From: a virus
DNA length: 27,746 bases
Strand: one strand, 5' to 3'
Virus record (IMG/VR): IMGVR_UViG_3300044636_000739
Coordinates: 1 to 27,746 of that record
Part shown: positions 4,100 to 23,400 of the stretch, piece after piece
How positions within the stretch are numbered: the first letter of the stretch is position 1
Layout of the letters: each line of letters opens with the position of its first letter
The notes under the pieces: generated by a model
Databases searched by the model: none
Seen by the model: only the letters and a program-made list of their open reading frames with translations
Told to the model about the DNA's origin: nothing
Program-made: the position numbers and the translations under genes

Positions 4100-4489
4100 A
4101 TGACATTCACAACTGAACTCTCCGCTCAGGGAATCACGCTCAACTGGGGAAGCACAGAAATTGGCGTCACCAGTATGCGATGGAGCGGCTCGGCTGCCGG
4201 AGAGATCGACATCACGTCGATGCAGTCGACGTTCGTCGAGGACGAGGACTTCTCGAACCGAAAGCTTGTCAAGAAAGCGATCGACTACGGCGTGATCGAC
4301 CTCGGAGAGTTGTCGTGTGAGTTTTTTGGGCCGGGCGGATTTTCCACCGACCAGATTGGCTCGCAGAAGACGCTCACCGTCAACGGAACAGGCCTGAGCG
4401 CGCCGGCGTACTTGACCGGCATGTCTCAGGAAATCGTGGCTGGGGAATTGGTCAAGGGTAGCTGCACATTCAAACTCTCGAACGAGTAG
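4100..4489 (+). CDS. Tail tube protein, paralogue 5 (most divergent)
   Basis: This 129-aa member is the most divergent. AQGITLNWGSTEIGVTSMRW takes the place of the shared N-terminus, EIDITSMQSTF gives the tube-like 'IDITS' strand, and IVAGELVKGSCTFKLSNE gives the same C-terminal GELxKGSxTFKxS signature. It lacks the KVDWIG strand and instead has LGELSCEFFGPGGF at that point, which resembles the 'GEVSVDF' strand of classical tube proteins. It may therefore be closest in structure to paralogue 1, or serve a distinct role at one end of the tube. Its stop codon overlaps the AGTACGGAT motif. Confidence 0.7.
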   Translation: MTFTTELSAQGITLNWGSTEIGVTSMRWSGSAAGEIDITSMQSTFVEDEDFSNRKLVKKAIDYGVIDLGELSCEFFGPGGFSTDQIGSQKTLTVNGTGLSAPAYLTGMSQEIVAGELVKGSCTFKLSNE

Positions 4490-4497
4490 TACGGATG
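4488..4497 (+). promoter_or_regulatory. AGTACGGATG motif before chaperone/tape-measure genes
   Basis: This is the first intergenic copy of a 9-mer repeated before several genes. It begins inside the TAG stop of paralogue 5 and lies 27 bases before the GTG of the tail chaperone gene. That gene has its own ribosome binding site AAAGGAG at 4510-4516. I infer a promoter-like element that could uncouple chaperone and tape measure expression from the tail tubes. No consistent -35 box is visible. Confidence 0.45.
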
Positions 4498-4524
4498 TGC
4501 GTTCTTTTCAAAGGAGTGTAGGCC

Positions 4525-4872
4525 GTGGGTGCATTGAACAAGAAGGCGATTCTGGACGCGCAGGACAAGAAGATGATCGACGTCGAGGTGCCCGAGTGGG
4601 GCGGCTCGGTGAAGATCCGCGTGATGACCGGCACGGAGCGTGACCGCTTCGAGGGCGAGTTTGTCGGCGGCAACAAGTCGGTCGACATGGTCCGGGCGAA
4701 GCTCGTGGCGAAGTGTCTGTGCGACGACGAGGGCAATCGGCTCTTCACCGAGGCCGAGGTGCCGCAGTTGGGCGAGAAGTCCGCTGCCGTCCTCGACAAG
4801 CTCTTCACCATCTGCATGAAGCACAACCGCTTCACCAAGGACGACGTCGAGGAACTCGCGGGAAACTCCTGA
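4525..4872 (+). CDS. Tail assembly chaperone, short form (G-like)
   Basis: This 115-aa protein starts at GTG 4525, 8 bases after AAAGGAG. KKAILDAQDKKMIDVEVPEW, then GGSVKIRVMTGTERDRFEGE, LVAKCLCDDEGNRLFTEAEV and LGEKSAAVLDKLF, with a C-terminal KDDVEELAGN, follow the siphophage tail assembly chaperone family closely. These proteins coat the tape measure during tube polymerisation and are not in the mature virion. It lies directly between the tube genes and the tape measure, the invariant position for lambda G/GT. Its last codons contain a -1 slippery heptamer leading into the downstream frame. Confidence 0.9.
   Translation: MGALNKKAILDAQDKKMIDVEVPEWGGSVKIRVMTGTERDRFEGEFVGGNKSVDMVRAKLVAKCLCDDEGNRLFTEAEVPQLGEKSAAVLDKLFTICMKHNRFTKDDVEELAGNS
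4860..4866 (+). promoter_or_regulatory. Programmed -1 ribosomal frameshift site GGGAAAC
   Basis: The heptamer G GGA AAC lies in the zero frame of the short chaperone (codons GGA 4861 and AAC 4864). This exactly fits the X XXY YYZ rule for tandem -1 slippage and differs only in the last base from the lambda G/GT site GGGAAAG. The stop TGA follows two codons later, at 4870-4872. The -1 frame then stays open to 5159. Slippage would yield a fusion of about 211 aa. A GC-rich stretch follows immediately, but I did not establish a stimulatory fold. Confidence 0.88.
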
Positions 4873-5159
4873 CGAGGCCCCGCCGGCTGTTCGAGTTTCG
4901 GCTCGCACTAGCCCTCGGCCGGTCTCACAGGGAACTCTTGGCGACGGTCGACGCTGCGGAACTCGCAGAGTGGGAGAGTTATTGGAAAATAGAACCGTGG
5001 GGAGACGAGTGGCGTCAGGTCGCTCGTCTCGCCACGGCCCTGTGTACGGCATGGGGCTCGAAAAACCTCGAAGAGGAAATGCTCATGCCGTCATACCGCA
5101 GGCCGCCTCAGTCGAAGGAGGCGATGATCGCAGAACTCCGAAAGGCATTCGGGGGATAA
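4866..5159 (+). CDS. Tail assembly chaperone, frameshift extension (T-like domain)
   Basis: This is the -1 frame extension, about 97 aa, expressed as the C-terminal part of a G-T fusion. It contains RLFEFRLALALGRSHRELLA, then LAEWESYWKIEPWGDEWRQV and a C-terminal segment LEEEMLMPSYRR. 'LALALGRS..ELL' plus 'L.EW..Y..IEPWG' is the typical T-domain signature. No ATG, GTG or TTG lies between the frame crossing and the first conserved residues, so independent initiation is unlikely and frameshifting is the natural route. The T domain recruits tail tube protein to the chaperone-coated tape measure. The stop is 3 bases before the tape measure start. Confidence 0.85.
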   Translation, partial: LLTRPRRLFEFRLALALGRSHRELLATVDAAELAEWESYWKIEPWGDEWRQVARLATALCTAWGSKNLEEEMLMPSYRRPPQSKEAMIAELRKAFGG

Positions 5160-5162
5160 GCG

Positions 5163-8100
5163 ATGGCGACGATCGGCACCATCACCGTCGAGTTCGCCGC
5201 TGACCTCCTTGGCCTTCAAGAGGGCATCACGGAGGCTCTCGACCTGTTCGAGGAGTTGTCCGACTCCATCGACAGCCTGTCTGAGCAGATCGAGGACGCG
5301 TCCGCAGGCGTCATCAAGATCCGTGCCGAGATGGACAAGGGCTCCATCGCTAAGGCCGAGAGCGACGTCAAGGGCGTCGGCAAGGACGCCGAGCCCGTCA
5401 AAATTGAGGCTGACACGACGGCCTTAGAGCAGTCTGCCTCACGCCTGTCCGGTTTCATTGACTCACTGCGACAATCATTCTCTGGACTTCCGGACGTCAC
5501 GGGTGAAGCTGCCGGGCAGACGCAGAGGTTTGCAGACAACGCCGGCGCGGCGGCGGAAGCCGGCGAAGGGCTGGGGAATTCACTACAGCGAGTAGCAGAC
5601 GGCTACTTGCTCGCGGCAACTGGGCAGAACGCAGAGGAAGCTAAGAAATACGCGGCCAGTTCGTTTTACGCGGCCACCGCTGTCGGCGAGGTCGCGGACG
5701 CTGCTTCGTCGGCAACGTCGGCTGTAGTTGGTTTCACTGAGGCCGCCACTCTTGCGACTTCCGGAAACGTCACCGCAACTTCTGCCATAGACAAGACGAT
5801 CGTGGCACTCGGCCGAAGCTACGGCGCGTACGGCGCAGTTGCCGGTGCAATCACCGGAACGGTCAGGGCGATGGGAGGAATGGCGGTCGTGTCTGCCGCT
5901 ATGGCCGGCAGCACCGCTGCGGCGGCCATATCTCTGGGGACGCTCGCAGCCGCAGCCGTGGGCGGCGCTGCGTCTTTTGTGACGTACAAAGCCGCAATGT
6001 ACGGCGTCAGTCTGCTGACTTCCGGGCTCAGCGACGAAGCTCGCGGATACGTTGAGGCAGTTGCCGCCGTCGGGGCAGCGTCCGCCGCTGCCGTTGTCGG
6101 AATCCGCGCTTCCTCCGTGGCCTATGGGCTTGTTGCGCCTGCGCTTTTCAGGTCTACGTCGGCCAGTCAGCTTCTCCAGAATGCGCTTCAGGGCCTCGGC
6201 GTCGCCGCAGTGCAGGGCGCAACTCGCGCCGCCACCCTGCTTGGAGTCTTGGGCCGGCTTCTTCCGGCAATCGAGCTTGTTGCTGGCGCGGCGAACAAGG
6301 AAATCTCCCTCACTCAGTACGCCGCGCTCACGGCAAGGATCGTGGCAACGTCGGTGGCTTTTGGTGCAGCCGAGGGGGCAATCTCGGCGTGGGTCGCCGG
6401 GACCGGATTAGCAGCCGGCGCAGCGGGCGGCGCCGGCACGGCAGTCTTGGGATTCGCAGCAACTCTCCCGACGGTCGTGCCGCTTGCCATCGCCGCCGCC
6501 GTCGCCACCGGCCGGTACGCTCACGAGCTTGAGGAGCTTAGCCTCAAGGCTCAGGCGATCGACCAGATGGCAAGCCGGTTCGGATCATCCACGGAGGAGA
6601 TCACCAAGCTTCGGCTGGCCGCCGACAACACTGGCGTCGGCATGGGGCAGCTTGCGAAGGGCCAGCAAGCGTTCTACACGAGCCTGTCGAAGATCAAGGC
6701 CGGGCAACTCAACGTCGAGAACGTCCGCGAGGCAAAGCTCGCCTACGACAAGCTCAACATCTCGCTCGACGAACTAAAGAGTCTGAAGCCAGAGGAAGCG
6801 TTCAAGGAAGTCGCCAAGCGGCTCAGCGAGGTCAAGGATCCGGCGGAGCGAACGGCGATCGCGTTTGACTTGTTCGGCAAGCAAGGCGCGGCGATCCTGC
6901 CGGCCCTCAAGGAACTTGGCGAGCTTGAGCAAGACTTCAAGAGGCTTGGCGGGACGCTGACGCAGATCAACTTCGACAAGTTTCTCCAGTTGGAGACTTC
7001 GTTTGACCGACTAAAGGCGTCGTCGTCGAATCTGAATCAGGTTCTGATGATCCCGTTCGTCGAGATGCAGAAAGCGTTCAACAACGCCACGGCGGACATC
7101 AGGGGCGGGCTCGCTGCGGCGCTCCAGCCTGTGATGACTGTCCTCATGGACATGACCAAGCCGCTGGCTGTGATCATCGAGGTGACGGCGAGAGTCGTGA
7201 ACATGATGCTCAGGCTCGTCGGTGCCATCCTCAAGGTGGCCGGTGCCGGGCTTGTGTTTGCCACGATTGCGACGCTGGCCGACATGGTCGGGAAGGTGAT
7301 TCTCGACCTCTTCGGCTACATCGAGGCGGTGATTACGGCAGTCGAGGGAGGAGCGTCCGTCATCGCCACTGCGATGCTCCCGGCAGTCGAGTCTTTCATG
7401 TACCTCGGCGAGGTTGTGGTCGGCCTGATCGGGATATTTACAGGAGACATCTTCGGCGACACCGAGGGTAACGCCAACTCGACGGCCACGGCGATCATCG
7501 CCCTCGGCGGTGCTTACTTTGCGGCGACGTTCAGCACGCAGATTTTCGCCATTGCTATGAAGTCGACGGCCGTGCAGGCGGTTGTCTCTGCGGCGGCTAC
7601 GGCTACGGCGTGGGTCGCAGCCATCGCCGTCGGCATCATCCCGGTCATTGCCGCAGGAATCATCGCGATCGGGGCCTACGCGGCGTCCGTTATCGCCGCC
7701 GCCGCCACGACTGCCGCCGCTGCGGTCGTGATGGCTATCTCGTGGCTCATCGCCCTCGGTCCCATCGGCTTGATCATTCTGGGCGTGGCCGCGATCGGAG
7801 CCGGCCTCGCCACCCTGTACGCGCTCGGCGGAAGCATCGCCAGCTTCTTCACCGGATTCTCCGATGGCTCCGAGAAGATCAACGCCGCCACGGCGTCCGT
7901 AGAAGAGCTTTCTGCGGCGGCAGCAAAGAACAGCCAGAGCGGCCTCCAGAAAGACATGGCGGCAGCTACGTCTTCGGGCGAGGGAGAGTCAGAGACAGTT
8001 CAGGTCGACTTCGGTGGCGCATCGAGAACCGCCACTGCGGAGTTCGGAGGAGCAAGGACGGCCGTCGTCGAGTACGGCGCGGCTATGGGCCTCACTAAGG

Positions 8101-10898
8101 AACAGGCGGACGCACTGTTCAACGCGACCGCCACCGGCGCTGGGGTGATTACGAACGCGATCCTTCCCTCCCTCGACAATGCGGTTGTGTCCGTCGGTGC
8201 AGCGTTTGGTATGAGCGAAGAAAGCTCGCGAGAGGCTTTCGCCGGCATGCAGGAAGACGCCGCAGCGTTCGCGTCGGACGGCGCTGCAATGGCGGCCGAC
8301 GGAGCCTACGCGCTCGCCGCCGCCTTCGGCGTGACTGAGGATGACATCAACGGCGCTATCCAGTCGATGAAGGAACAGTTCGCAGACCTGACAGAGTCCA
8401 TGAAGGGGCCGTCTGTGGACGAGATCGCGGCCAGCGTCACGACCGCTCGCGACCGGATGGGTGAACTGACGATCGAGTCAGCCAAGTTCGGGCAAGCCGG
8501 CGCCGACGCCGCCGCTGCCTCGCAGAAGCAGTTCAATGATCTCCAGCAACAGCTTGCCGACGGCAGCATCACTCTCGAAGAGTTCGATACCGAGGCTGCA
8601 CGGCTTGGCGACAACCTCGAAAAGAACCTTGATATCCTCAAGAACGACGCCCCCGAGGTCACGCTCAAGAAGAACCTCGAACTGTACAAGCAACTCGACG
8701 ACGCCGCGAAGGCCGCCGGCAAGTCTGTCCGAGACATCGGCGCTGGCGTGGTGATCGACGACAAGTTCTTCCCGACGTCGGCAGCCATCAAGGAAAAGGC
8801 TGCCCAGTACAAGAACGAGTACGTCAAAGCCCTCGAAGAGATCAAGAAGAAGCAGCAATCAGGCGGCTTTGCCGCAGAGATCAAGCAGAAGCAGCAAAAG
8901 AATCAGGCCGACTTTGACTCTGGCAAGATCTCGCAAGAGCAGTTCCTCGCCGTCAAGCTCGAACTCGACTCGACGAATGCTCAGGAGCAAGCGTCGATCG
9001 CCGCCGAGGAGGTCAAGCGAGAGTTCGACCGCAAGAACAAGATGGACATCGAGCTTGATATGTCGTTCGCCGACGGCATTCGCAAGTCGCTCGACGAAGC
9101 GTTCCTCTCGCCTGTGCAGAAGTTCGACAAAGAACTGAAGAAGATCAGGGATAACAAGTCTCTCACGCCGGAAGAGAAGCAACTGGCCGAGGTCGATCTC
9201 CGCAAGAAGACCACCGAGAGCCTCGTCGGCAAGTCCGCTCAGGCTCAGTTGACGGACAGGAAGCGAGACCTGAATCAGGCTGCCGACGCTGGACTCATCA
9301 CCGGCGGAAAGCTGGACTCTGAGCTTCAGAAGGCAGCCGACGACTTCGCCAAGGCCGTTGGAGTGACGCAGACGCCTTTCGAGTCGTTCTCTTCGTCGCT
9401 CAACAACATCACTGCGCAGTTCGGCTTCGCCGGGCAGCCGATCGACGAGGTTCGCGAGAAGCTCAAGGGCAACGCCGATCAGCTTGACCTCTTCGATCGT
9501 GCCGTGAAGGAGTCCCGAGATAACCTTCTATCCTCGCTGGGAATTGAGAAGACTCCGCAGGCGATCTTCGACGAGCAGATGAAGAAGATCGACGAGGCGG
9601 CTAACTCGAAGGATCCCAACAAGAGGATCTCGGCGTCGCAGGCAGAGGAGGCAAGGACAGCCGCCACTCGCAAAAGAGACGAGGCACTGGGCGCAGGAGC
9701 GGACGTCGGCGGCCAGCTTCGCGACCGTCAGAAAAAGATTGAAGAAGCGTTCGGCGGTGGCAAAGACCCAGCCAAGCTTGCTGTGGCACAGAACAAGCTC
9801 GACATGGACAAGCGATCCGCAGCCGGCCTCGACCCGACGGCTGCCCAATCGCTCAAGGCCGGCGTCGACAAGGTCAACGACGCATTTGGCGTGACCGGAA
9901 AGAGCATGGCGGAGATTCAGAAGGAGCTTTCTCCGCAAGACTTCAAGGAGTATCAAGAGGCGATCCAGAAGAACTCTGACGCCGTGAAGGCCAGTCTTGG
10001 GGTCGAGAAGAGCGGCGCCGACAAGATCAAGGAGTCTCGCGACAAGCTCTCTGCGGCCGTGGCTGGCGGCGTCATCACTCAGAAAGAGGCAGACAAGGCA
10101 ATCAAGGCACAGAAGGACAGCCTCCTGTCGTCGCTCGGCATCTCGAAGAGCCCCGCCCAAGACTTCGAGGACGCCGTCACGAAGATCCAAGAGAACGCCT
10201 CTGAGCTTAGCCCGGAAGAGTTTGCTAAGGGGATGAAAGAAGCCAAGGACAAGCTCCTGTCCGCCCTTGGCATCGACAAGAGCCCCGCTCAGCAAACCGA
10301 AGACGCGATGAAAAAGCTTCGCGAGGCGTTCGATAAGGGCCAGATCTCGGCGACTGAGTTCGCCAAGGGCTCTCAGAAGGCCAAGGACACGCTGCTTCAG
10401 TCGCTGGGCATCCCGCTCAATCCTGTGACGCAACTCAAGGAGCGGATGGACAACCTCAAGGAAGCGTTCTCCAAGGGGCAGATATCGCAGGAGGAGTTCA
10501 CGCGTGGTCAGGACGAGGCTCGTCGCTCGATGCTCCCCGGCGGCGAAGAAGAAAGCCCCGTGAAGAAGTTCGAGCGAGACATGAAGGCCGTCGACGATGC
10601 TCTCAAGGAGGGACTGATCGAGGGTGACGACGCTGACCTGAGGAAGAAGAACCTCCAAGCCCAGCTTCAGGAAGACTTGAAGCCGTCGCTCGACAAGGTC
10701 GCCCCTGACCGTCGCGGCATCGAGGGCTCCGACACGAGGAGCAAGGGCGGCGTCGACACGTTCTTCCGCATCCTTCGTGGCAACGACAACCCAAGCCTCA
10801 AGGCCCAGCTTGAGGTCGCACGCAACACGAAGATTCTCGCCGAGGCGGCCAAGAGCCCCGAGGCCCGCCCGGTCCTTGTCCAGCTTGCTGCACGCTAG
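5163..10898 (+). CDS. Tail tape measure protein
   Basis: This 1911-aa protein sets tail length. At about 0.15 nm per residue it would predict a tail near 280 nm, which is long for a siphovirus. The N-terminal 80 residues are helical. Residues about 170-450 are Ala/Gly-rich and hydrophobic. Residues about 480-600 hold the family-typical block with LRLAADNTGVGMGQLAKG and FDLFGKQGAAILPAL. Further hydrophobic segments lie at about 670-760 and 780-910, suitable for membrane passage during DNA delivery. The rest is charged coiled coil, ending in 45-aa repeats (about 1456-1850). No peptidase or lysozyme domain was recognised. It starts at ATG 5163, 3 bases after the chaperone stop, and the preceding chaperone pair supports the call. 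Confidence 0.93.
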   Translation: MATIGTITVEFAADLLGLQEGITEALDLFEELSDSIDSLSEQIEDASAGVIKIRAEMDKGSIAKAESDVKGVGKDAEPVKIEADTTALEQSASRLSGFIDSLRQSFSGLPDVTGEAAGQTQRFADNAGAAAEAGEGLGNSLQRVADGYLLAATGQNAEEAKKYAASSFYAATAVGEVADAASSATSAVVGFTEAATLATSGNVTATSAIDKTIVALGRSYGAYGAVAGAITGTVRAMGGMAVVSAAMAGSTAAAAISLGTLAAAAVGGAASFVTYKAAMYGVSLLTSGLSDEARGYVEAVAAVGAASAAAVVGIRASSVAYGLVAPALFRSTSASQLLQNALQGLGVAAVQGATRAATLLGVLGRLLPAIELVAGAANKEISLTQYAALTARIVATSVAFGAAEGAISAWVAGTGLAAGAAGGAGTAVLGFAATLPTVVPLAIAAAVATGRYAHELEELSLKAQAIDQMASRFGSSTEEITKLRLAADNTGVGMGQLAKGQQAFYTSLSKIKAGQLNVENVREAKLAYDKLNISLDELKSLKPEEAFKEVAKRLSEVKDPAERTAIAFDLFGKQGAAILPALKELGELEQDFKRLGGTLTQINFDKFLQLETSFDRLKASSSNLNQVLMIPFVEMQKAFNNATADIRGGLAAALQPVMTVLMDMTKPLAVIIEVTARVVNMMLRLVGAILKVAGAGLVFATIATLADMVGKVILDLFGYIEAVITAVEGGASVIATAMLPAVESFMYLGEVVVGLIGIFTGDIFGDTEGNANSTATAIIALGGAYFAATFSTQIFAIAMKSTAVQAVVSAAATATAWVAAIAVGIIPVIAAGIIAIGAYAASVIAAAATTAAAAVVMAISWLIALGPIGLIILGVAAIGAGLATLYALGGSIASFFTGFSDGSEKINAATASVEELSAAAAKNSQSGLQKDMAAATSSGEGESETVQVDFGGASRTATAEFGGARTAVVEYGAAMGLTKEQADALFNATATGAGVITNAILPSLDNAVVSVGAAFGMSEESSREAFAGMQEDAAAFASDGAAMAADGAYALAAAFGVTEDDINGAIQSMKEQFADLTESMKGPSVDEIAASVTTARDRMGELTIESAKFGQAGADAAAASQKQFNDLQQQLADGSITLEEFDTEAARLGDNLEKNLDILKNDAPEVTLKKNLELYKQLDDAAKAAGKSVRDIGAGVVIDDKFFPTSAAIKEKAAQYKNEYVKALEEIKKKQQSGGFAAEIKQKQQKNQADFDSGKISQEQFLAVKLELDSTNAQEQASIAAEEVKREFDRKNKMDIELDMSFADGIRKSLDEAFLSPVQKFDKELKKIRDNKSLTPEEKQLAEVDLRKKTTESLVGKSAQAQLTDRKRDLNQAADAGLITGGKLDSELQKAADDFAKAVGVTQTPFESFSSSLNNITAQFGFAGQPIDEVREKLKGNADQLDLFDRAVKESRDNLLSSLGIEKTPQAIFDEQMKKIDEAANSKDPNKRISASQAEEARTAATRKRDEALGAGADVGGQLRDRQKKIEEAFGGGKDPAKLAVAQNKLDMDKRSAAGLDPTAAQSLKAGVDKVNDAFGVTGKSMAEIQKELSPQDFKEYQEAIQKNSDAVKASLGVEKSGADKIKESRDKLSAAVAGGVITQKEADKAIKAQKDSLLSSLGISKSPAQDFEDAVTKIQENASELSPEEFAKGMKEAKDKLLSALGIDKSPAQQTEDAMKKLREAFDKGQISATEFAKGSQKAKDTLLQSLGIPLNPVTQLKERMDNLKEAFSKGQISQEEFTRGQDEARRSMLPGGEEESPVKKFERDMKAVDDALKEGLIEGDDADLRKKNLQAQLQEDLKPSLDKVAPDRRGIEGSDTRSKGGVDTFFRILRGNDNPSLKAQLEVARNTKILAEAAKSPEARPVLVQLAAR
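9520..10660 (+). repeat. Degenerate ~45-aa protein repeats in tape measure C-terminus
   Basis: The segment LLSSLGIEKTP (near residue 1456) recurs as VKASLGVEKSG (about 1608), LLSSLGISKSP (about 1653), LLSALGIDKSP (about 1698), LLQSLGIPLNP (about 1743) and finally a degenerate ESPVKKF unit near 1790. The last four are spaced 45-46 residues apart. Each unit has a helix, a short turn of the type KGQIS.EEF..G, and a second helix, reminiscent of SHOCT-like hairpins. Unequal recombination between units would change tail length stepwise. Confidence 0.75.
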
Positions 10899-10905
10899 TA
10901 CGGAT
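10897..10905 (+). promoter_or_regulatory. AGTACGGAT motif before tail-tip gene
   Basis: An exact copy of the repeated 9-mer begins within the TAG stop of the tape measure gene. It ends 10 bases before the ATG at 10916. No purine-rich Shine-Dalgarno sequence lies between motif and start. A TTGTCC hexamer lies 17 bases upstream of TACGGA here, but the other copies lack an equivalent. If the motif is a -10-like promoter element, the transcript would start very close to the ATG. Confidence 0.45.
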
Positions 10906-10915
10906 ACACTTTCTC

Positions 10916-11781: not shown

Positions 11782-12153
11782 ATGAGTAATGGGCCGGGAA
11801 ACAGCGGCTCTCAGGTCGTCAGCTTCAGTCTGGCTGACGCACAAAGAATCTCTGCCGTCGTTGCCGAGGCCGAGGGGAGCCGTCGTGGCCGAAAGGGCTC
11901 GACGCTGCCGAGGGCTGCCGGCGGTGGCGGGGGTTCTGTGGTTCTGGCGACGTTCACCGGGGCTTGGAGCAAAAACCAAACTAAGGTCGTGAGTCTTCTC
12001 TCTGATCCCACCTCCACAGCGGCTGCGATGAACGTCGTGGCGAACGTGAGTCCGCACACCGGAAACATCGCTCGCGTGTGCTGTTTGGCGATGGCACAGA
12101 CGGCGGCGAGCGGGGCCGCAACGTATGTGGCTATCTCGATCGACAGGTGCTAG
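11782..12153 (+). CDS. Small glycine-rich phage protein, unknown function
   Basis: This 123-aa protein starts at ATG 11782, preceded by GAGGTG. The N-terminal half is polar and low complexity, with an Arg/Lys patch (SRRGRKGS) and a five-Gly run. The C-terminal half has short beta strands (VVLATFTGAWSKNQTKVVSL), a Cys pair and a final YVAISIDRC. I recognise no family. Its position between the putative tail-tip protein and the giant fibre, and its co-directional tight spacing, suggest a minor tail protein or fibre adaptor. The stop is 2 bases before the start of the fibre gene, implying coupled translation. Confidence 0.55.
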   Translation: MSNGPGNSGSQVVSFSLADAQRISAVVAEAEGSRRGRKGSTLPRAAGGGGGSVVLATFTGAWSKNQTKVVSLLSDPTSTAAAMNVVANVSPHTGNIARVCCLAMAQTAASGAATYVAISIDRC

Positions 12154-12155
12154 GA

Positions 12156-15100
12156 ATGCCTTGCGACGATTGCGGGTGCAACTCATACGTCGGCGTCGGG
12201 AACAACGAGTCCGGGCAGGCCGCTCCGCGATCGGAGGTGCGTCACTGCATATTCGGAAATGTTGTTGCCGAGGGGCGGAGATATTTTCCCGACTACTACA
12301 TCGAGAACCCCAACCTGTCTGACGGCTTTTGCGGCGAGAGACGGTGGAAGCGTGTGTTCACAGGTGACGAAGGTGGCATCGGATGCACGTTTGCGATCGA
12401 CATGGAAGACAAGCTGTGGGCGTGGGGCGACAACCGGTGGGGCCAGCTTGGTGACGGCTCGTATCTAGCCAAGGGCAACCCGGTCCAGATCGGCAGCGAC
12501 ACTTGGAAGTTTATCTACACCACTGGTGGCTCGACGCTCGGAATAAAGACCGACGGCTCGCTGTGGGGATGGGGCAAGTGCAACGCGGGCCAGCTTGGGC
12601 TTGGAGGAATCCTTCCGACTAATGCCACGAGATTCAGGAAGATTGGCCCGGGAAATCTAGGATACGGCTGGGAAGACAACACCGACTACTTCAACGCGCC
12701 AGCCGCTCGCGCTGTGCTGAGCAGCGGAATCGACAGCGTCGGGCCGATAAAAGGCCACTACAACGAAAACAATAACACGGCCAATAAGCCAGACTTCAAT
12801 CGCGCTCCAACGGCGTCCGTTGTCTACAACATCGTTCGTCCCGACATAACCCCAAACATTTACAAGGCGGGGAGCGGCGCTGAATTTGTGTGTCTCATCG
12901 ACGGGGCTGTTCAGTCGAGTTCCTCAAAGTACACGAATCTTCGGCCGCTGATAACGAACGGCGGTTCTGGGTACGCGTCTGCTCCAGACGTCAGCTTCGA
13001 GGGCGGCGGCGGGCGCGGCGCGATGGCGAAGGCCACGGTCAGCGGAGGCTCTGTAGTTTCTCTAGAAATCACAAGCGGAGGATCTGAGTACCAGACGCCG
13101 CCCACTGTCGTTTTCAGTGGTGGCGGAGGCTCTGGTGCGTCAGCAACCGTTGAGATTGCCGGCCCAATGCTTGAGGTTCAGGTCAAGTCTCCGGGTAGCG
13201 GATACACGTGCGATCTTCCGCCGGTTCAGGGCATGGGTAGCCTCGGTCCGCTTCCTTATCCTCAGTGGTATACGGATTACTTCTACGGAGACTTTGAGGA
13301 GGCCAGAACGTATGGAGTAAGCAACCACTACACCTTCGACATTTATCCTCGCTACTACAAGACAATAAAGGTAAACTTTCAGGCCTCACCAGAAGACAAA
13401 ATCTCTTATCCGGAGAAGAAGCCTGAGTACATCTACGCACGAGCCCGCCTGAAGCCGGCTCCGATCTCGTCTATCGTTCCGTACTTTGGCGGATCGGTTT
13501 ACTGCCGAGTGAACGTCAGCCAAGAACTCCCGAATGGATTTGACGCAAACTCTCCAGCATATATCAAACCAGACATCGCGATCGAGGATTATGACGTCTA
13601 TGGCGAGGGGTTCAACAGGGCGACCGCCGAAGTGACGAGCTATACGATCGACCAGAACGGCATGAACATCACTGGTATTGCGATTACGAACCCGGGGTCT
13701 GGGTACATCTTTGCTCCAGACGTCGTCATTGGTCCGCCAAACAAGCCTCGCCTCGTCGACTCTGGGTCATGGACTCACGTTTCGGTCTCTAAGGAAGGTG
13801 CTGGGGTCGGCATCAAATCCGACGCCTCCATCTGGGTATGGGGGGCACGTCCTAATCGCGACGAAACGGACGGCTCCGATACTTACAAAGAGCCTCTTTA
13901 CAGTCCAACGCCGCTGGGGCGTGGGCTGAGGCTGTACGCTTCCGTGAATGCTCCGCCGGCGACTCCGTTTACGACGAGCGATCCTCAGTACAACAAGTAT
14001 GACTCGCGAGCGGTTGTGCCATTTTGGAGAAAAGAGTGGGACGCTGGCGAAGTTGAAATCACGAGTGCCCAAGGGTGGGGATACACAAGCGTGCCGACCC
14101 TGAGCCCGACCGAAGGAGGAAAGTGGACTTCTGTTCCCAATCCAGATGTGGGAGTTCCCGCTCAGGTTGCAAAAGTGTCGCCATCTGGATCTGGCAACAA
14201 CACGCTGTCGCGGCTCGGACGCACTCCAGATGAAACCCAGTTTGAGTATTGGCCGGGCGGGAACAATTACGCAGATCGAATCTCCGGAACGGAGGTGTGG
14301 GAAGCGCAGTGGTCAGGCTTCCGCGCTGAACTGAGCGGGCCGTCGGGCGGAGTCAAGTGCTACGCCGACGGTTTCGCGAGGTACGTGATCGACTCCGGAG
14401 GAAGCCTGTGGATCATCAAGAAGAGCCTTCCGCAGCAAGCGAGAACAGGGCCAGACATCAGGAAAACGCTGTGGAATACAGAGACTTACTTCTACCCCGG
14501 AGGTTATCAATGTTTCGTGGCAAGCCTAAGCTCCGATGAAAAAATCGGCACCGAAGATCGGGGTGGGTTTCTAAACCCTGAGCCGTACCCAAACATATTC
14601 GATCTCCCTACGCATGGCGATCTAAGGAAAGAAGGCTCGCACGTCATTCCGAAGACCGGGCTTGTGATCACGGCCACGCAGGGCAGCGAATACTACGACT
14701 ACATCAACGACTACTCGAATTACTCTCCTCCGAAGGCGTGGCTCCGTGCTGAAGTCGAGCATGTGTTTCGCACGTCCTTCAAGTCGACGGAGGAGCCTGA
14801 GTTTATGACAGGATCATGCGGGGACTGGACTCCGTACTGGGGCTACCTTACCGGAGACGCAGTCAACACCAAAGTGTTGGTCACTGGGCCGGGCAATGGG
14901 AAATATGACTGGACAGTTTCCAGAACAACGCGACTAGCTGACATTACGAAGAAGTCGTTTTCGCACGAGAAGATCGCCAGCGTCTCGCTTCATCCGGAAG
15001 TCGTCTGGGGCGGCAAGCTGTATTCGGCGACAACAGTGTCTCTATCTGGGTATGTCCCGAGCGACTCGCATTTGTTTGAGCCGTACTCCACGCTTGATGT

Positions 15101-18100
15101 TCAGACGGCAGGCGTCGAGAACACGGACGTTGGCGGCTCCGGGGGGACTGTTCAGGTGACGGCGAACGATGACCGATACGGCTTCTCGAATAGATTCATG
15201 GCGGAGTGCAAAGGGGCGTGGAGTAATTACTTCCCGAGGCACGGCGTCGCCTCAAGCGAATCCGGCACGCTGACTTTTGGAATGAGGCCACACGAGTACG
15301 GATCTTTTGCCGGGTGGACGGTCCCTCAGGAATACTCCGGGTTTTCCGCTGTCGCAGAAGGAGGCGTCGGCCTCAAGTCAGGCGACACGGCGTGGAGGCT
15401 CCCGGTCGCGTTCTCGCAGCCGCCGGCGAGAATCAATCCGTTCACTCCGACTGTTACGTCCTCTGGGTCGGGGTATACCGAGCCGGCAAAGGCGTCGCTC
15501 TCTCCGGCGTCTGCGACGTCGGCTGCGAGTGTCACTTGCAGCATCAACGGGAAGGTCATCGCCGTCGGCGTTATTGAAGGAGGCAGCGGGTACAAAACGG
15601 CGCCTCAAGTCTCGTTTTCCAACGGAGGGGCACAAGCAACCGCCACAATTGAAGGGCCGGTGTCTAAAGTCACAGTCACAGGTGGCGGTGGCGATTATGC
15701 GGTGCCTCCGACGGTCGTCTTCTCTGACCCCGGAATACCAGCCAAGGCGACAGCCGCGATTTCTGGAGGCATCGCGGAGGTGAGGATGACCGCCACAGGC
15801 AGTGGCTATTTTTCGGCGCCTCAGGTTGAGGTGGACGGCGACGGCAGCGGCGCTGTTGTCACGGCGACGATCAGCGGAGGCGGAAAGGTAGACAGATTGC
15901 TTCTGACGTCTCGCGGAAGCAAGTACACGTCCAGCCCGACTGTGTCCATAACTGGCGGGGGCGGCAGTGACGCAGCGGCAGCCGCAACAGTTGACCTCGA
16001 CGAGGAAAGCGACACATACGGGCAAGTCATAAACTTGACGCTTACCTCGCGAGGGAATGGCTACACTTCTGCGCCAGAGGTTTCCATCACGGGGTCACAA
16101 GACCCCGGCGGCGAGCCAGCAACCGCAACGGCGACAGTAAAAGCAGACGGAGTCGTGACAGGCTTTTCTGTCGTCAGCGGAGGCAGCGGATACACAACTC
16201 CTCCAGCGATTCGAGTTGGAGGAGGCGCCGCCGGTGTTGCAAGGCTTTCTGGATATGTTTCTGACGTGACGATAGTCAGGGGTGGCAAATACAGGTCTGC
16301 CCCAACTTTTTCTTTCGAGACGAAGAAGGAGGTCTCCTCGCTGACGCTCACTTCTGGAGGGAGCGGATACTCAGTGCCTCCGTCCGTGGAAATACTTGGC
16401 GGATACGGCGCGGGCGCTGCGGCTGTCGCTGTTCTTGCGTCCACGCTTTCAAATGCCACAGTGACAGTCACTAAGGGTGGCTCTGGGTACACGTCTGCAC
16501 CACGCGTGACTTTGTCTGGCGGCAGCGGCGAGTTTGCAACCGCGACGTGCAGCGTCAGCGGAGGGGTTGTGACGTCCGTAACCATTCAGTCCCCCGGCGG
16601 CGGATTTCTTTCCGCCCCGACCGTCACTTTTTCAGGCGGCGGTGGTTCTGGCGCTGAGGCCAAGGTTGGCCTGCCGGTGTCGAAGATTCTGTTGTCCGAC
16701 TCTGGGTACGGATACGAAAAGTCCCCGAGGGTTTTCTTTTTTGGGGGCGGCGGAACTGGCGTCGCTGCCACAACGCAGATCTCTCAAGCCCCCGGCAGTG
16801 GAGGGTCTGGAACAACTGAGATCGATGGTTCTGTGGTGTTTGTGTCTGTCACGAACGAGGGAAGCGGCCTGACATCTCGCCCCTCAGTCACCGTGCCCGG
16901 AAACGCTAAGCTTCAGGCTTACGTGTGCGGGACGTTGACGCAGCCAACGGTGACGAACCCCGGATCAAACTACTCAAGCAACGACCTGTTACGATATGGG
17001 CCAACGGGTCTGGAGTATGACAAGGATGGGAAATACAAGGGCCCCGCCGCGACCGTTCTGGGGACTAGGCTGGACTCGCCGCTCGGCGGAGCTGGAGCTT
17101 ACTACAGTTCAGGGTACTGGTTTGATGGCTCTTGGGGGGGTGGCGGGATTACTTCTGTCTCAGTGTATCGATCGCCGCTTCGGCTGACACAAGGCAATCG
17201 CCTGCCGAGGACCGGGTCTCCAATAACAGGAGCCGATTCGATCGCCGGCACGTATGCCACTCCGCCGCTAATCGTTCCGATCGACTCGTTTGCTGTTGCC
17301 CCAAGGACAACGATGCGGCTTCGGTCGCTTGCCATGTCAAAAACGGCAACGTCTATCTCGCTTTCTAACCCAACGAGCGATTCTGAAAAGCATCTGCTTT
17401 ATTCGACTCATCACCGTGGTGTTGTGTGTGGCTCTGGGAAGTCTGCGACTGCATGCGCCGTTCAAGGCCTTTTGATTGTCAAGGGCGATCTTCAATCTGG
17501 ATCTAAGATCAGGTTTTATAGTTTGGTCTCGCCGTTCTTGCACGCAAGATACTCCAAAGCGCCTTCAGTGAAGATCAGGAGCGTCAGCGGGACGGGCGCG
17601 AAGGCGCAACTCTCCATAGACGCCAACGGGGTCGTGGAGTCTGCGTCCGGAATGACAATTACGCAGTCTGGAAGCGGCTACCTGAACGTCGACGGGCTTG
17701 AGTTTGATCAGGGAGAGAGACTGGTGGATGAGCCATCGGCAACCGCCACAGTCGATGCGTCCGGAAGTGTGACCTCAATATCGATCCAGAGCGGCGGAGG
17801 TGGTTTTTACAAGCCGCCGAGGGTCGTGATTCACGGCGGAGGAGGGACAGGCGCCGAGGCTGTTGCGACTCTTGTGGCCGATCCGCAGGGTGGAAACGCG
17901 GTCGTTTACGCAGTTGGGTCAGTGGGAGTCGTGAGTGGAGGGTCCGGTTATTCGACTTCCAATCCTCCGTCAGTCTCGTTTGTTCACTCGACAGAAGATG
18001 AGTCAATCTTCGACCCCCGGTGCGTGGCAACTCCAACTCAGGAGGCAGCCGAGACGTACTTCATTTACGGCGACGACAGCGGCACGGGGATCGCCTTTTA

Positions 18101-18812
18101 CTCTGGCTACGATCCGTCCTCGTATGAGTCTGGATTGAAATATTGGCAGGGCTCTGTGCTACTGCCGCGATTCGGCCAGTACCTGTCTTCTTTGACTGGC
18201 TACGAAAGGTTTGTTGTCCTGTCTGCACTTCCTATTCCCGGCTTGGTGGACGACGTCTTTTCTAAATTTCAGATTCAATACTGCGGCTTCGGCTTGCGTC
18301 AAGAAAATTACGGAGGATTGAGAATGGCCGGCAACAGTTACGCGACGGAACTTGGGGAGAATACTTACGGCTGGCAGAGCCCCAGCTCAATAATGTACCC
18401 GGCCGCAACGAGCCCCTTTTACTACTGGCCTCTCATATCGTCGCAGTCGGCAAAGACATGCTCGATCGACACATCGTTCCCCCCCGTGGCGATGATTTCG
18501 GACGTCTCCGCTGCGTACCAATTTCAACGCGGAGCCCACATAAACAACTGCGACCTATCCGGAAACCCGCTCGTCGTTCCGTTTTTCGATGACGGTCAGG
18601 TGACAGGAGTTGATTCGTATCGATACAGCAACGAGGGGGGCGCTTGTTTTTTGGCTGGAGTGCCCGTGCCCACCTCGTGCAGTGTTTCGGGGGTCGGGAC
18701 TGGGGCAGAAATAAGCATCTCTTCCATAAAGGCCCACGCCGAGGCAAGCGTTTCTCAGTCGGTGTATGGGCAGGTGGCTTCTCACGTAATCATCATTCCG
18801 AAATTTGACTGA
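12156..18812 (+). CDS. Giant tail fibre/adhesin with RCC1-like and GSGY repeats
   Basis: This 2218-aa protein starts at ATG 12156, 2 bases after the previous stop. The frame is open earlier, but the Cys-rich start MPCDDCGCNS with coupling to the upstream gene is preferred. Residues about 75-150 contain two RCC1-like units (DKLWAWGDNRWGQLGDGS and GSLWGWGKCNAGQLGLGG). Further degenerate units occur near 545 and 740. Three blocks of 'GSGY.S.P.V.. GGGGSGA.A' repeats lie at about 267-353, 1101-1545 and 1801-1943. The C-terminal 270 residues are non-repetitive and Tyr/Ser/Phe-rich, a good candidate for the receptor-binding end. Being the last and longest gene of the tail module, it is most likely the host-recognition fibre. 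No peptidase or hydrolase motif was recognised. Confidence 0.8.
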   Translation: MPCDDCGCNSYVGVGNNESGQAAPRSEVRHCIFGNVVAEGRRYFPDYYIENPNLSDGFCGERRWKRVFTGDEGGIGCTFAIDMEDKLWAWGDNRWGQLGDGSYLAKGNPVQIGSDTWKFIYTTGGSTLGIKTDGSLWGWGKCNAGQLGLGGILPTNATRFRKIGPGNLGYGWEDNTDYFNAPAARAVLSSGIDSVGPIKGHYNENNNTANKPDFNRAPTASVVYNIVRPDITPNIYKAGSGAEFVCLIDGAVQSSSSKYTNLRPLITNGGSGYASAPDVSFEGGGGRGAMAKATVSGGSVVSLEITSGGSEYQTPPTVVFSGGGGSGASATVEIAGPMLEVQVKSPGSGYTCDLPPVQGMGSLGPLPYPQWYTDYFYGDFEEARTYGVSNHYTFDIYPRYYKTIKVNFQASPEDKISYPEKKPEYIYARARLKPAPISSIVPYFGGSVYCRVNVSQELPNGFDANSPAYIKPDIAIEDYDVYGEGFNRATAEVTSYTIDQNGMNITGIAITNPGSGYIFAPDVVIGPPNKPRLVDSGSWTHVSVSKEGAGVGIKSDASIWVWGARPNRDETDGSDTYKEPLYSPTPLGRGLRLYASVNAPPATPFTTSDPQYNKYDSRAVVPFWRKEWDAGEVEITSAQGWGYTSVPTLSPTEGGKWTSVPNPDVGVPAQVAKVSPSGSGNNTLSRLGRTPDETQFEYWPGGNNYADRISGTEVWEAQWSGFRAELSGPSGGVKCYADGFARYVIDSGGSLWIIKKSLPQQARTGPDIRKTLWNTETYFYPGGYQCFVASLSSDEKIGTEDRGGFLNPEPYPNIFDLPTHGDLRKEGSHVIPKTGLVITATQGSEYYDYINDYSNYSPPKAWLRAEVEHVFRTSFKSTEEPEFMTGSCGDWTPYWGYLTGDAVNTKVLVTGPGNGKYDWTVSRTTRLADITKKSFSHEKIASVSLHPEVVWGGKLYSATTVSLSGYVPSDSHLFEPYSTLDVQTAGVENTDVGGSGGTVQVTANDDRYGFSNRFMAECKGAWSNYFPRHGVASSESGTLTFGMRPHEYGSFAGWTVPQEYSGFSAVAEGGVGLKSGDTAWRLPVAFSQPPARINPFTPTVTSSGSGYTEPAKASLSPASATSAASVTCSINGKVIAVGVIEGGSGYKTAPQVSFSNGGAQATATIEGPVSKVTVTGGGGDYAVPPTVVFSDPGIPAKATAAISGGIAEVRMTATGSGYFSAPQVEVDGDGSGAVVTATISGGGKVDRLLLTSRGSKYTSSPTVSITGGGGSDAAAAATVDLDEESDTYGQVINLTLTSRGNGYTSAPEVSITGSQDPGGEPATATATVKADGVVTGFSVVSGGSGYTTPPAIRVGGGAAGVARLSGYVSDVTIVRGGKYRSAPTFSFETKKEVSSLTLTSGGSGYSVPPSVEILGGYGAGAAAVAVLASTLSNATVTVTKGGSGYTSAPRVTLSGGSGEFATATCSVSGGVVTSVTIQSPGGGFLSAPTVTFSGGGGSGAEAKVGLPVSKILLSDSGYGYEKSPRVFFFGGGGTGVAATTQISQAPGSGGSGTTEIDGSVVFVSVTNEGSGLTSRPSVTVPGNAKLQAYVCGTLTQPTVTNPGSNYSSNDLLRYGPTGLEYDKDGKYKGPAATVLGTRLDSPLGGAGAYYSSGYWFDGSWGGGGITSVSVYRSPLRLTQGNRLPRTGSPITGADSIAGTYATPPLIVPIDSFAVAPRTTMRLRSLAMSKTATSISLSNPTSDSEKHLLYSTHHRGVVCGSGKSATACAVQGLLIVKGDLQSGSKIRFYSLVSPFLHARYSKAPSVKIRSVSGTGAKAQLSIDANGVVESASGMTITQSGSGYLNVDGLEFDQGERLVDEPSATATVDASGSVTSISIQSGGGGFYKPPRVVIHGGGGTGAEAVATLVADPQGGNAVVYAVGSVGVVSGGSGYSTSNPPSVSFVHSTEDESIFDPRCVATPTQEAAETYFIYGDDSGTGIAFYSGYDPSSYESGLKYWQGSVLLPRFGQYLSSLTGYERFVVLSALPIPGLVDDVFSKFQIQYCGFGLRQENYGGLRMAGNSYATELGENTYGWQSPSSIMYPAATSPFYYWPLISSQSAKTCSIDTSFPPVAMISDVSAAYQFQRGAHINNCDLSGNPLVVPFFDDGQVTGVDSYRYSNEGGACFLAGVPVPTSCSVSGVGTGAEISISSIKAHAEASVSQSVYGQVASHVIIIPKFD
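12956..17985 (+). repeat. Gly-Ser-Gly-Tyr protein repeats within the fibre gene
   Basis: At least fifteen imperfect units share the pattern 'xSGGSGYTSAPxVxxSGGGGSGAxATAxVSGGxVxxVxI' with a usual period of roughly 30-40 residues. They fall in three clusters: about 12956-13215, 15460-16790 and 17560-17985. Some units lose the Tyr (GGGGDYAVPP, GSKYTSSP, PGGGFLSAP). The units are diverged at DNA level, so this is an old expansion. I expect beta-solenoid or beta-sandwich spacers of the kind found in long phage fibres. Confidence 0.8.
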
Positions 18813-20452: not shown

Positions 20453-20952
20453 CCGTCGACGACGGAGAGCTTCAGGCCGAGCTTGATGCGGCCGTCGACA
20501 TGGGCACGGCGACGCCGATGCCGGGGATGTTCGAGATGGCCGAGGGCGACAACCCGAAGGACGTGATCGGCAGCGACAAGCTTCCTCTCCATCTCTGGCC
20601 GACGACGGCTAGTGCGATGGGCTGCATCGCTTTGCTCAACGGGGCCTTGAAGTACGGACGCTCGAACTGGAGGGCCGTGGGAGTGCGAGCATCGATCTAC
20701 GTGGACGCCTGCCAGAGGCACCTCGCGGCGTGGTTCGAGGGCGAAGAGGCCGACGAAGAGGGCGTGCCGCACCTGTCGGCGGCTCTCGCGTGCCTCGCGA
20801 TCCTCGTCGACTGTCAGGCGGCCGGAAAGCTCAAGGACGATCGGCAGTTCCCGGGAGGACACCGTGAACTGATCGACTCGCTGACGCCTCACGTGGCGAG
20901 ACTCAAGGAACTGCACTCAGGGCGGAGCCCGCAACACTATGTCAGACAGTGA
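20350..20952 (+). CDS. DUF5664 / dATP-dGTP diphosphohydrolase N-terminal-like protein
   Basis: This 200-aa protein starts at ATG 20350 after a strong GGAGGAGG-type site (about 20334-20342). Residues about 74-175 match the DUF5664 pattern: NPKDVIGSDKLPLHLWP, GALKYGRSNWR, YVDACQRHLAAWFEGEEADE and GVPHLSAALACLAILVDCQA. The KYG..NW, RH..A and HL..A signatures suggest an all-alpha NTP-pyrophosphohydrolase-like fold. The domain carries that name in the Pfam family as I recall it, and is widespread in phages. A role in trimming dNTPs fits the dCMP deaminase next door, but substrate is inference. The N-terminal 60 residues are unlike the domain. It overlaps the deaminase by 14 bases. Confidence 0.75.
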   Translation: MQVTAVDGGHVTSIDEANAVIRKIVEARKSTEAVTVDDGELQAELDAAVDMGTATPMPGMFEMAEGDNPKDVIGSDKLPLHLWPTTASAMGCIALLNGALKYGRSNWRAVGVRASIYVDACQRHLAAWFEGEEADEEGVPHLSAALACLAILVDCQAAGKLKDDRQFPGGHRELIDSLTPHVARLKELHSGRSPQHYVRQ

Positions 20953-22519: not shown

Positions 22520-22741
22520 TCAGACTTGAGCGTCCTCGCAGATGTTTTTCTTGAGCCAGCGGCCGATTTTCTTCGCGGCCTGCTCGTGCGACGTGATCTT
22601 GCCGGCGAACACGTCGGCGATCACCCACGCGATGCACTCGTCGAGAATCAGGTCTGCCGTGGGGTCGACCCCCCTATAGAAGCGACAGTCTTGTCGAACG
22701 ATCCGTCGAAACTCTTGGACTGACTGCGGCGCGGTTTTCAT
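22520..22741 (-). CDS. 73-aa protein of unknown function, upstream of integrase
   Basis: This is a short helical protein with ATG at 22741 and a good ribosome binding site on the minus strand (GGAGGG, about 6 bases before the start). The visible order is SVQEFRRIVRQDCRFYRG, a hydrophobic helix LILDECIAWVIADVFAG, then a charged helix EQAAKKIGRWLKKN and ending CEDAQV. I recognise no family. It is transcribed ahead of the integrase, in the position of small lysogeny regulators, but has no clear HTH. A TTGACA box upstream supports expression from the divergent control region. Confidence 0.65.
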   Translation of the reverse strand: MKTAPQSVQEFRRIVRQDCRFYRGVDPTADLILDECIAWVIADVFAGKITSHEQAAKKIGRWLKKNICEDAQV

Positions 22742-22794
22742 TGGTGTCCCTCCGTGAGCTACCGGCCCGGGGAGCGTCCCTCAGGCCCACCAGA

Positions 22795-22823
22795 AGAATC
22801 CTGTCCCCGCCATTATTTGTCAA
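22795..22823 (-). promoter_or_regulatory. Candidate sigma-70-like promoter for the minus-strand genes
   Basis: On the minus strand, TTGACA (complement of 22818-22823) is followed 17 bases later by GATTCT (complement of 22795-22800). The -35 box is perfect and the spacing ideal; the -10 box matches TATAAT at only 3 of 6 bases. A transcript would begin about 50 bases before ATG 22741. It faces the divergent gene at 22896 across a terminator. Confidence 0.4.
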
Positions 22824-22830
22824 ACGAAAT

Positions 22831-22861
22831 CCGGGGTTTCGCGGTGAAACCCCGGTTTTTT
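22831..22861 (+). terminator. Strong intrinsic terminator in the control region
   Basis: CCGGGGTTTC (22831-22840), loop GCGGT, GAAACCCCGG (22846-22855) and TTTTTT (22856-22861) make a textbook plus-strand Rho-independent terminator with a perfect 10-bp stem. The nearest plus-strand gene upstream ends at 21418, with the minus-strand integrase block in between. It therefore either insulates the next gene from antisense read-through or ends a short plus-strand RNA made in this control region. Confidence 0.85.
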
Positions 22862-22869
22862 AGTAGGAA

Positions 22870-22879
22870 AGTACGGATG
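22870..22879 (+). promoter_or_regulatory. AGTACGGATG motif after terminator, before double-HTH gene
   Basis: An exact copy of the repeated motif lies 9 bases after the terminator T-run and 16 bases before ATG 22896. AAGGAGG follows immediately at 22880-22886. Because transcription arriving from upstream would stop at the terminator, expression of the downstream gene requires a start in this short space. The motif is the obvious candidate core element. Confidence 0.55.
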
Positions 22880-22895
22880 CAAGGAGGGGCAGCAG

Positions 22896-23366
22896 ATGGC
22901 TTTTCACCGACCCGTGTCTATTTCAGAGGCCGCCGACCTGATGGGCTTGACTAAGAGCGGCGTGATCAAGGCAATTGCCACCAAGAGACTTGTCGCGGTC
23001 GCCCTCAGCGGGAGGGGGCTGATGCTCAGCCACGAGCAATGCTCAGGCAAGAAGTTCGACGAGGCCGAGTTCAGGAAGCTCTGCAAGAAGTTCGTGTCGG
23101 TCCCTGAGGCATGCGACATCGTCTACAAGACGGATTCGATGGTCATGCGAGACCTGAGAGCGGGAAGGATTGCCGGGTTCCGCTTGAACGGCAAAGCGTG
23201 GGCCGTCGACAAGCGGTCGGCCGAGCAAGAGTTCGCCGACTATCTCTCTCAGCCACAGCGACGCGGCCAGCCTCGCCGAGTTGGTGACACGAGGTCGCCT
23301 CGTCACCTCCGGAAAAAGCCCTTGACCAAAAAGACGACGCCGGTACGATCTCGTCGCGGCAAGTGA
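22896..23366 (+). CDS. Double helix-turn-helix DNA-binding protein (excisionase-like)
   Basis: This 156-aa protein has two HTH units of the excisionase/MerR-like winged type. The first spans residues 7-35 (VSISEAADLMGLTKSGVIKA) and the second 67-105 (VSVPEACDIVYKTDSMVMRD, then IAGFRLNGKAWAVD). Both start with VS-x-xEA and end in a wing-like 'R..F...GK.W.V' or 'RLVAV' turn. A strongly basic tail (residues 121-156) could also contact DNA. A perfect ribosome binding site AAGGAGG lies about 9 bases before the ATG. Being divergent from the integrase block and next to the control region, it could be the recombination directionality factor or a lysogeny/early regulator. The choice between these is inference. 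Confidence 0.72.
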   Translation: MAFHRPVSISEAADLMGLTKSGVIKAIATKRLVAVALSGRGLMLSHEQCSGKKFDEAEFRKLCKKFVSVPEACDIVYKTDSMVMRDLRAGRIAGFRLNGKAWAVDKRSAEQEFADYLSQPQRRGQPRRVGDTRSPRHLRKKPLTKKTTPVRSRRGK

Positions 23367-23381
23367 CTGCCGCCTCTTTTT
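23356..23381 (+). terminator. Intrinsic terminator after the double-HTH gene
   Basis: GCGGCA (23356-23361), loop AGTGAC holding the TGA stop, TGCCGC (23368-23373) and then CTCTTTTT form a 6-bp perfect stem with a T-rich tail. It overlaps the end of the gene, a common compact arrangement. It should separate the HTH gene transcript from the DUF3310 gene, with the repeated 9-mer motif starting 10 bases further on. Confidence 0.7.
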
Positions 23382-23390
23382 GCTCTGCAC

Positions 23391-23400
23391 AGTACGGATG
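23391..23400 (+). promoter_or_regulatory. AGTACGGATG motif before DUF3310 gene
   Basis: This exact copy lies 10 bases after a terminator and 8 bases before ATG 23409. There is no Shine-Dalgarno sequence in the interval (CGTGTTCC). If the motif acts like a -10 element, transcription would begin within a few bases of the ATG, giving a leaderless or nearly leaderless mRNA for a run of at least a dozen overlapping genes. Confidence 0.55.

Follow-up and report, generated by a model that had tools for sequence, protein, structure and literature searches.

A short DNA element recurs along one strand of the 27.7-kb virus record IMGVR_UViG_3300044636_000739, and its sequence context suggests that it is probably the core of a phage-specific class of promoters that lack a -35 box, TWGT[AC][CT]GGAYAC-N4-AC. 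The whole of this record was analyzed and is referred to as the window. The element is real and is conserved across a family of uncultured phages. A sequence-only reading of the window had listed exact copies of the 9-mer AGTACGGAT at 4488, 10897, 22870 and 23391, upstream of four start codons, and all four are present. With the copies at 3467 and 15295 there are six on the plus strand and none on the minus strand. The expectation for the window is 0.07, and none of 100 shuffled sequences reached six. Four of the six lie within 40 nucleotides (nt) upstream of a plus-strand gene start, a zone that covers 4.0% of positions (binomial P 3.7e-5, a post hoc value based on gene starts that we compiled, one of them entered as 23663 instead of 23662). 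This placement is stronger evidence than the frequency, which is weak because eight different 9-mers have at least six copies on the plus strand of the window; the count of AGTACGGAT alone is unexceptional. The gaps between the end of the copy and the start codon are 28 (4488), 10 (10897), 17 (22870) and 9 nt (23391), which upholds the near-start position given by the sequence-only reading and amends its range of 8–27 nt. As that reading had stated, two copies (4488 and 10897) overlap the stop codon, TAG, of the gene upstream.

The element was examined in relatives of this phage. G001, a contig of 45,186 bases, is longer than the window and comes from this phage or one almost identical to it, and the window is not letter-identical to it. 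It contains no exact AGTACGGAT beyond the six in the window, but it carries TAGTACGGAAAC immediately 3' of the major capsid gene. Further loci were found through the tail protein that adjoins the tape-measure gene (25, later 65) and through the capsid protein (19). Stretches of 20 related uncultivated phage records were retrieved and turned to the orientation of their coding strand. These records may be fragments. Outside the window, open reading frames (ORFs) come from a basic caller that takes the longest frame, which makes "noncoding" an approximate term. All 7-, 8- and 9-mers found in the noncoding DNA of at least five of the 20 records were ranked by noncoding enrichment, and the first of the 9-mers is TAGTACGGA (18 of 30 copies noncoding, log10 p -14.4). 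The second-ranked 9-mer, TATGACACA, is the reverse complement of TGTGTCATA. G032 is a near-copy of G030 that was omitted from most counts and included in this k-mer ranking and in the sigma region 2 and T7-type polymerase searches; without it TAGTACGGA is noncoding in 15 of 26 copies. An earlier test on 39 non-redundant loci (up to ~21 kb around the tail gene) gave 6 of 11 copies noncoding (log10 p -6.7), and there TAGTACGGA was outranked by ribosome-site and junction words.

The distinctive property of the shorter word GTACGGA is its orientation, which is 33:5 among the noncoding copies. Alignment of these 38 sites shows no more than 0.26 bits at any position from -40 to -3 and conservation at -2 to +9 and at +14/+15. 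The copy before a gene for a two-domain winged-helix protein reads GTCTGG in G012, G034 and G026. GTCTGGA is also oriented (plus/minus counts of 10/0 in G009, 11/0 in G012 and 10/0 in G027), as is GTCCGGA (6/0 in G009 and 5/1 in G028); seven control patterns mostly have zero or one copy, and a few have up to four. A shift in helix-turn-helix (HTH) specificity, considered as the reason for the GTCTGGA of G012, G034 and G026, was discarded since the large records contain both variants. The general pattern [TA][AT]GT[AC][CT]GGA.[AG]C occurs 187 times along the direction of transcription and eight times against it in 19 records. A second tool returned plus/minus counts of 25/0 in G009, 20/0 in G027, 21/1 in G028, 21/1 in G029, 18/0 in G030 and 15/0 in G012. 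The density is 15–25 copies per record of 75–97 kb. The pattern is matched in 25 of 30 related records, in five of them only once.

Column analysis was confined to the 89 of 184 distinct plus-strand sites that remained after 95 in stretches open in some plus-strand frame were dropped. The columns give TWGT[AC][CT]GGAYAC-N4-AC, 18 bp in length, where the core letters are fixed by the search pattern and the others are free. No column upstream of -3 exceeds 0.22 bits, starting from -62. The two centre bases are coupled (AC 41, CT 37, CC 7 and AT 4 of the 89 sites). The AC and CT centres look interchangeable because orthologous sites swap one for the other. The exact 9-mer is thus only a part of the motif and was dropped as the recognised unit in favour of the degenerate 18-bp form; the proposal of a recurrent, promoter-like core stood.

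At the position 3' of the capsid gene the element is retained, while the leader on the capsid side diverges. Among 11 non-redundant phages the core there is exact in eight, and the others have GTACGTA, GTCTGGA and ATACGGA. Pairs of these phages have an identity of 0.90 over the core, 0.35 over the leader, 0.45 around the ribosome site and 0.80 over the first 30 nt of the gene that follows. In the 20-record set, the start of the two-domain winged-helix gene is seen in 13 records, and all 13 have a GT[AC][CT]GG element before it. At the tape-measure junction it is present in six of 25 loci, near-duplicates included, and in further relatives.

No sigma70-type signal accompanies the element. The best sigma70 match in the 90 nt upstream averages 5.24 mismatches compared to 5.28 in random sequence (n = 33), which agrees with the earlier statement that the copies share no -35 box. 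A sigma70-type search of 8.7 kb of the window gave one weak match, with 1.0 expected. An apparent sigma70 promoter 5' of the element before an SNF2-like gene (G030, G028 and G009) was set aside after inspection by eye as the end of the preceding coding frame. A second class of sites behaves differently. All 16 plus-strand [TC]GTGTCATA boxes (the TGTGTCATA type) that passed the noncoding filter are followed by -35-like and TATACT-like hexamers 16–17 nt apart, with a mean of 2.12 mismatches compared to 5.59 in random sequence. The layout is the box, TTGACA or TTGCAA from 13–14 or 24–26 nt (about one helical turn apart), 16–17 nt and a TATACT-like box. This class is found in G006, G009, G010, G027, G028, G029 and G030, and no such box was found in G001 or G012. 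Without the noncoding filter there are 29 boxes on the plus strand and two on the minus strand, and the nearest element to any plus-strand box is 324 bp away. In G009, G027, G028, G029 and G030 the boxes are grouped in a single cluster on the right-hand side of the winged-helix gene; the exceptions are an isolated match in G027 and two in reverse orientation in G009. From its sequence, this class looks like an early sigma70 promoter under the control of an activator or repressor.

The positions of terminators and start codons also bear on the function of the element. In nine records a hairpin and T-run precede the element, with 12–13 nt from the start of the T-run to the start of the motif; all nine are at the winged-helix gene and represent one orthologous junction. 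Terminators also lie 9–11 nt 5' of the TGTGTCATA-type box at six places. At the winged-helix junction the element occupies the usual place of a promoter. The terminator caller made 140 plus-strand calls, most of them apparently weak and intragenic, and 12 of the 140 have an element within 150 nt downstream. For ORFs of at least 70 amino acids (aa), the excess of ATG codons over chance is clear only from offset 16 after the motif start. Offsets 15–19 hold 10 ATG starts compared to 2.3 expected, and the excess continues to offset 54. Outside open frames, 11 of 16 starts located 7–12 nt after the core have no ribosome site, and 33 of 39 starts at least 15 nt after it have one. These counts are indicative only, since the start picker favours ribosome sites and orthologues were counted apart. 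To that extent, the start-codon and ribosome-site pattern fits an RNA start at about motif position 17.

The copies in the window are all on the plus strand. The copy TAGTACGGATGTGCGTTC (4487–4504, score 18.6) contains the TAG stop of the preceding tail gene (4100–4489) and lies 5' of a gene that starts with GTG at 4525 and has the ribosome site AAAGGAG. The counterpart of this gene, 115–121 aa in length, is also preceded by the element in G004, G009, G031, G033 and L015. The copy TAGTACGGATACACTTTC (10896–10913, score 25.9) contains the TAG stop of the tape-measure gene (5163–10898) and is followed by an ATG at 10916 without a ribosome site. The copy AAGTACGGATGCAAGGAG (22869–22886, score 14.4) lies between an intrinsic terminator and the two-domain winged-helix gene (22896–23366). 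The terminator (22831–22861) has an 11-pair stem and TTTTTT and ends 7 nt 5' of the motif. The copy CAGTACGGATGCGTGTTC (23390–23407, score 12.4) is followed by an ATG at 23409 without a ribosome site, and orthologous copies are present in G030, G032 and G006. A weak terminator-like hairpin of six pairs, CTCTTTTT (23356–23380), is found at the end of the winged-helix gene upstream of this copy, and its T-run is not conserved in the relatives G030 and G006. The sequence-only reading had described well-formed terminators before both of these copies, which holds for 22870 and not for 23391. Its corollary, that transcription of the downstream gene has to begin at exactly this point, is unproven; polymerase could read through, and the second of the two terminators is weak.

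The same reading had listed partial or coding copies at 3467, 15295, 20437 and 23609, some of them possibly due to chance. The first two are exact and coding. One is in a tail-protein gene (3466–3483), where it encodes TSTDIS and is probably coding sequence only, and the other (15295–15303) is in a long repeat-rich tail gene, matches the 18-bp motif poorly and does not reach a score of 11.5. The copies at 20437 and 23609 each differ from AGTACGGAT by one mismatch. The second of these, AAGTACGGACACGGTCTC (23608–23625), lies within the 3' end of the gene at 23409–23669 and 5' of an overlapping gene at 23662 with the ribosome site AAGGAG. It is probably a real site rather than chance, because it scores 20.1 and precedes a gene whose product has a homologue in G030 (by-eye comparison).

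Several observations weigh against a promoter. Bare GTACGGA has 104 sense-coding, 76 antisense and 38 noncoding copies. In a separate count 23 of its 65 copies lie outside plus-strand ORFs, where its 420 anagrams average 11.9 of 48.9; several anagrams are higher, with more noncoding copies, and GTACGGA was rejected as an outstanding word by count. About half of the distinct plus-strand copies of the motif (the 95 of 184 dropped above) are in stretches open in some plus-strand frame. Of 25 loci, 19 have no element at the tape-measure junction. The G/C-rich composition of the core is atypical for DNA melting. At 41178 in G030 the element lies just upstream of a sigma70-like promoter. ATG codons at offsets 0–4 number five compared to 2.2 expected, perhaps because some motif starts read ATG, and the ribosome-site pattern does not hold inside open frames, where 14 of 34 distant starts have such a site. 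At G009 63090, G028 72974 and G030 49073 a strong hairpin and T-run, weaker in G030, follow soon after the element and 5' of a primase-polymerase gene. This hairpin could terminate the element's own transcript early; the arrangement may be an attenuator or may point to another function.

The search for a protein that reads the element also weighs on this side. The sequence-only reading had proposed an unusual sigma factor or a phage polymerase, and neither was recognised: sigma region 2 was found in none of 29 records by a search that was positive in 10 of 14 control genomes, and a T7-type polymerase (PF00940) was found in none of the 29 by a search that matches T7's own enzyme at 9.9e-110, although a very divergent enzyme or missing sequence is possible. 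A search of 12 records gave no GcrA, and for sigma region 4 three of 12 had matches, all of them sub-threshold. One of these is a small HTH protein of the window (24806–25087), which resembles several HTH families weakly, sigma region 4 (E 0.019) among them, and always below the cut-offs. Because the records may be fragments, the lack of a gene in them is no proof of its absence. A GcrA-like reading of the small HTH proteins was unsupported.

The two-domain winged-helix protein (22896–23366, plus strand, 156 aa) is a candidate regulator of the excisionase/MerR-like type and a candidate reader or repressor of the element. Its structure model (mean pLDDT 78.6) contains two similar helix-helix-hairpin units. 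The Pfam match is HTH_17, below the cut-off, and the nearest folds are TraN of Enterococcus and the excisionase Xis of phage Pukovnik, all with E > 0.01. The 14 of 30 records with the full-length protein contain 175 main-strand sites in 863 kb. Five distant relatives (G037, G038, G039, G049 and G051) match only its second half and contain two sites in 195 kb, and the remaining 11 records have no match to it and 0–10 main-strand sites each. This co-occurrence could reflect a functional link and agrees also with plain ancestry, since it follows the phylogeny.

The main rival to a promoter is that the elements are stoperator-like repressor sites. The winged-helix protein would bind the asymmetric element at gene boundaries of the prophage, block RNA polymerase in one direction and silence the lytic genes. 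The stoperators of L5 and cluster A (PMC9283540) are asymmetric sites of one orientation, found many times in the short gaps between genes of temperate phages, and the L5-type repressor is a two-domain monomer that reads an asymmetric site. The protein could therefore be a repressor and not an activator, since its predicted two DNA-binding domains would match this mode. The 15–25 sites per large record, often in short gaps beside stop or start codons, resemble the stoperators, an integrase-containing cluster covers 11 of 12 records, and the full two-domain protein co-occurs with the element. Yet that co-occurrence could be ancestry. L5-type stoperators also serve as operators of early promoters, whereas the sigma70-type promoters here, which a repressor would be expected to target too, have no element within 323 bp of any of the 29 boxes. 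The element differs further from the L5 sites in its sequence, its ties to terminators and start codons and its many copies in open frames. Its place between a terminator and the gene of the regulator itself is one that calls for a promoter, and roadblocks would not be expected to show start codons setting in 16 nt after the beginning of the motif. We consider this reading unlikely.

Function at the RNA level, as a leader that recruits ribosomes, as a site of processing or as a loading site for antitermination, is rather improbable. The element adjoins start codons, the 11 of 16 close starts noted above have no other ribosome site, and the element follows stop codons and precedes the terminator-like hairpin in three phages. 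However, its distance to the start ranges from 16 to more than 50 nt, outside open frames most distant starts come with a ribosome site of their own, and in nine records it comes directly after a terminator. Rfam has no match in the window, and leader hairpins were rejected as a feature of the element because they are not enriched (7 of 89 compared to 6–14 in shifted controls). A last alternative, that AGTACGGAT recurs by chance or as the code for common peptides such as KYGY or STD, is very improbable as a general account. It is likely for the coding copies: those at 3467 and 15295 are coding, one at 20651 is within an LKYGRSNW stretch, bare GTACGGA is mostly coding and eight 9-mers reach six copies in the window. 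It is unlikely for the intergenic copies, given the noncoding enrichment of TAGTACGGA, the footprint conservation and the 187:8 orientation. The promoter reading is supported because recurrence across the family, strict orientation, conservation of the footprint, the lack of a sigma70 signal and fixed terminator spacing point the same way.

The geometry of the element can be compared to known systems. Like the promoters of single-subunit polymerases of the T7 type, the element is contiguous over about 18 bp, with about 12 conserved bp, four variable positions and then a conserved pair where RNA could start, and is asymmetric, without a -35 box and repeated many times along one strand. Its sequence differs from theirs, and the 29 records gave no such polymerase. 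T4 middle and late transcription (PMC2988021) uses a phage-specific class of short promoters beside sigma70-type early promoters, which is a likeness, and the MotA box sits 12 bp from a strict -10 element. Unlike MotA promoters, the element has no conserved -10; AsiA, MotA and the T4 late sigma factor were not searched by their own models. The start-associated sequences of cluster K (PMC3203893) share one orientation, a position upstream of starts and the occasional inclusion of a stop codon. They are typically 3–7 bp from the start, contain AGGAG and are restricted to the non-structural half, whereas the ATGs of the element are 16 to more than 50 nt from the motif start, the core is not AGGAG and structural genes are included. 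The 17-bp repeat of Corndog (PMC4351075) is present more than 30 times in that phage's genome, within genes as well as between them, and resembles the element in its many copies; it is palindromic and the element is asymmetric.

The window has other features of note. Five consecutive genes at 2608–4489 look by eye like tandem paralogues of one tail-type protein with the pattern 'GIxFxF...KGSxTFxxS'. A 2,244-codon open frame at 12078–18812, probably a tail gene, contains many degenerate 'SGYTSAPxVxxSGGGGSGA' repeats. No relative turned up in two scans of bacterial and archaeal genomes, and plasmid and phage collections gave distant matches or none; a host among the Planctomycetes is no more than a guess. 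Neither the tail protein nor the winged-helix protein has a match in the annotated phage collection, where the capsid matches listed have ~25–32% identity over part of the protein.

A promoter of this kind would work as follows. A transcription machine would read the contiguous element of ~18 bp in one direction only, and RNA would begin close to the A that is conserved at motif position 17. Genes with an ATG at position 17 or a few bases on would have leaderless or near-leaderless mRNAs, and other genes would have a short leader carrying a ribosome site. The element would serve structural, replication and other genes, and the gene cluster beside the immunity region would use sigma70-type promoters with an upstream TGTGTCATA box; the two classes may be early and later. 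A phage-encoded factor, perhaps the two-domain winged-helix protein, would redirect the host RNA polymerase. A more specific proposal is tentative and possible at best: that temperate phages without a recognisable sigma factor or polymerase of their own start replication and structural genes at an 18-bp promoter without a -35 box, through an unrecognised phage factor, plausibly a tandem winged-helix specificity factor, with an AC/CT switch in the core. Such a system would be undescribed, and among the matches listed from the open-licence literature no title concerns this element.

If the element is a promoter, an uncultured lineage of temperate phages has a second transcription class whose reader falls outside all families tested, in a lineage without a close relative in the annotated phage collection as searched with the tail, capsid and winged-helix proteins. 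The element would then provide a defined 18-bp target, with ~20 sites per large genome, for finding this reader. The coupled centre (AC, CT, CC or AT) is a testable rule of DNA recognition. Transcription units and the division of genes into two classes could be drawn from metagenomic sequence alone.

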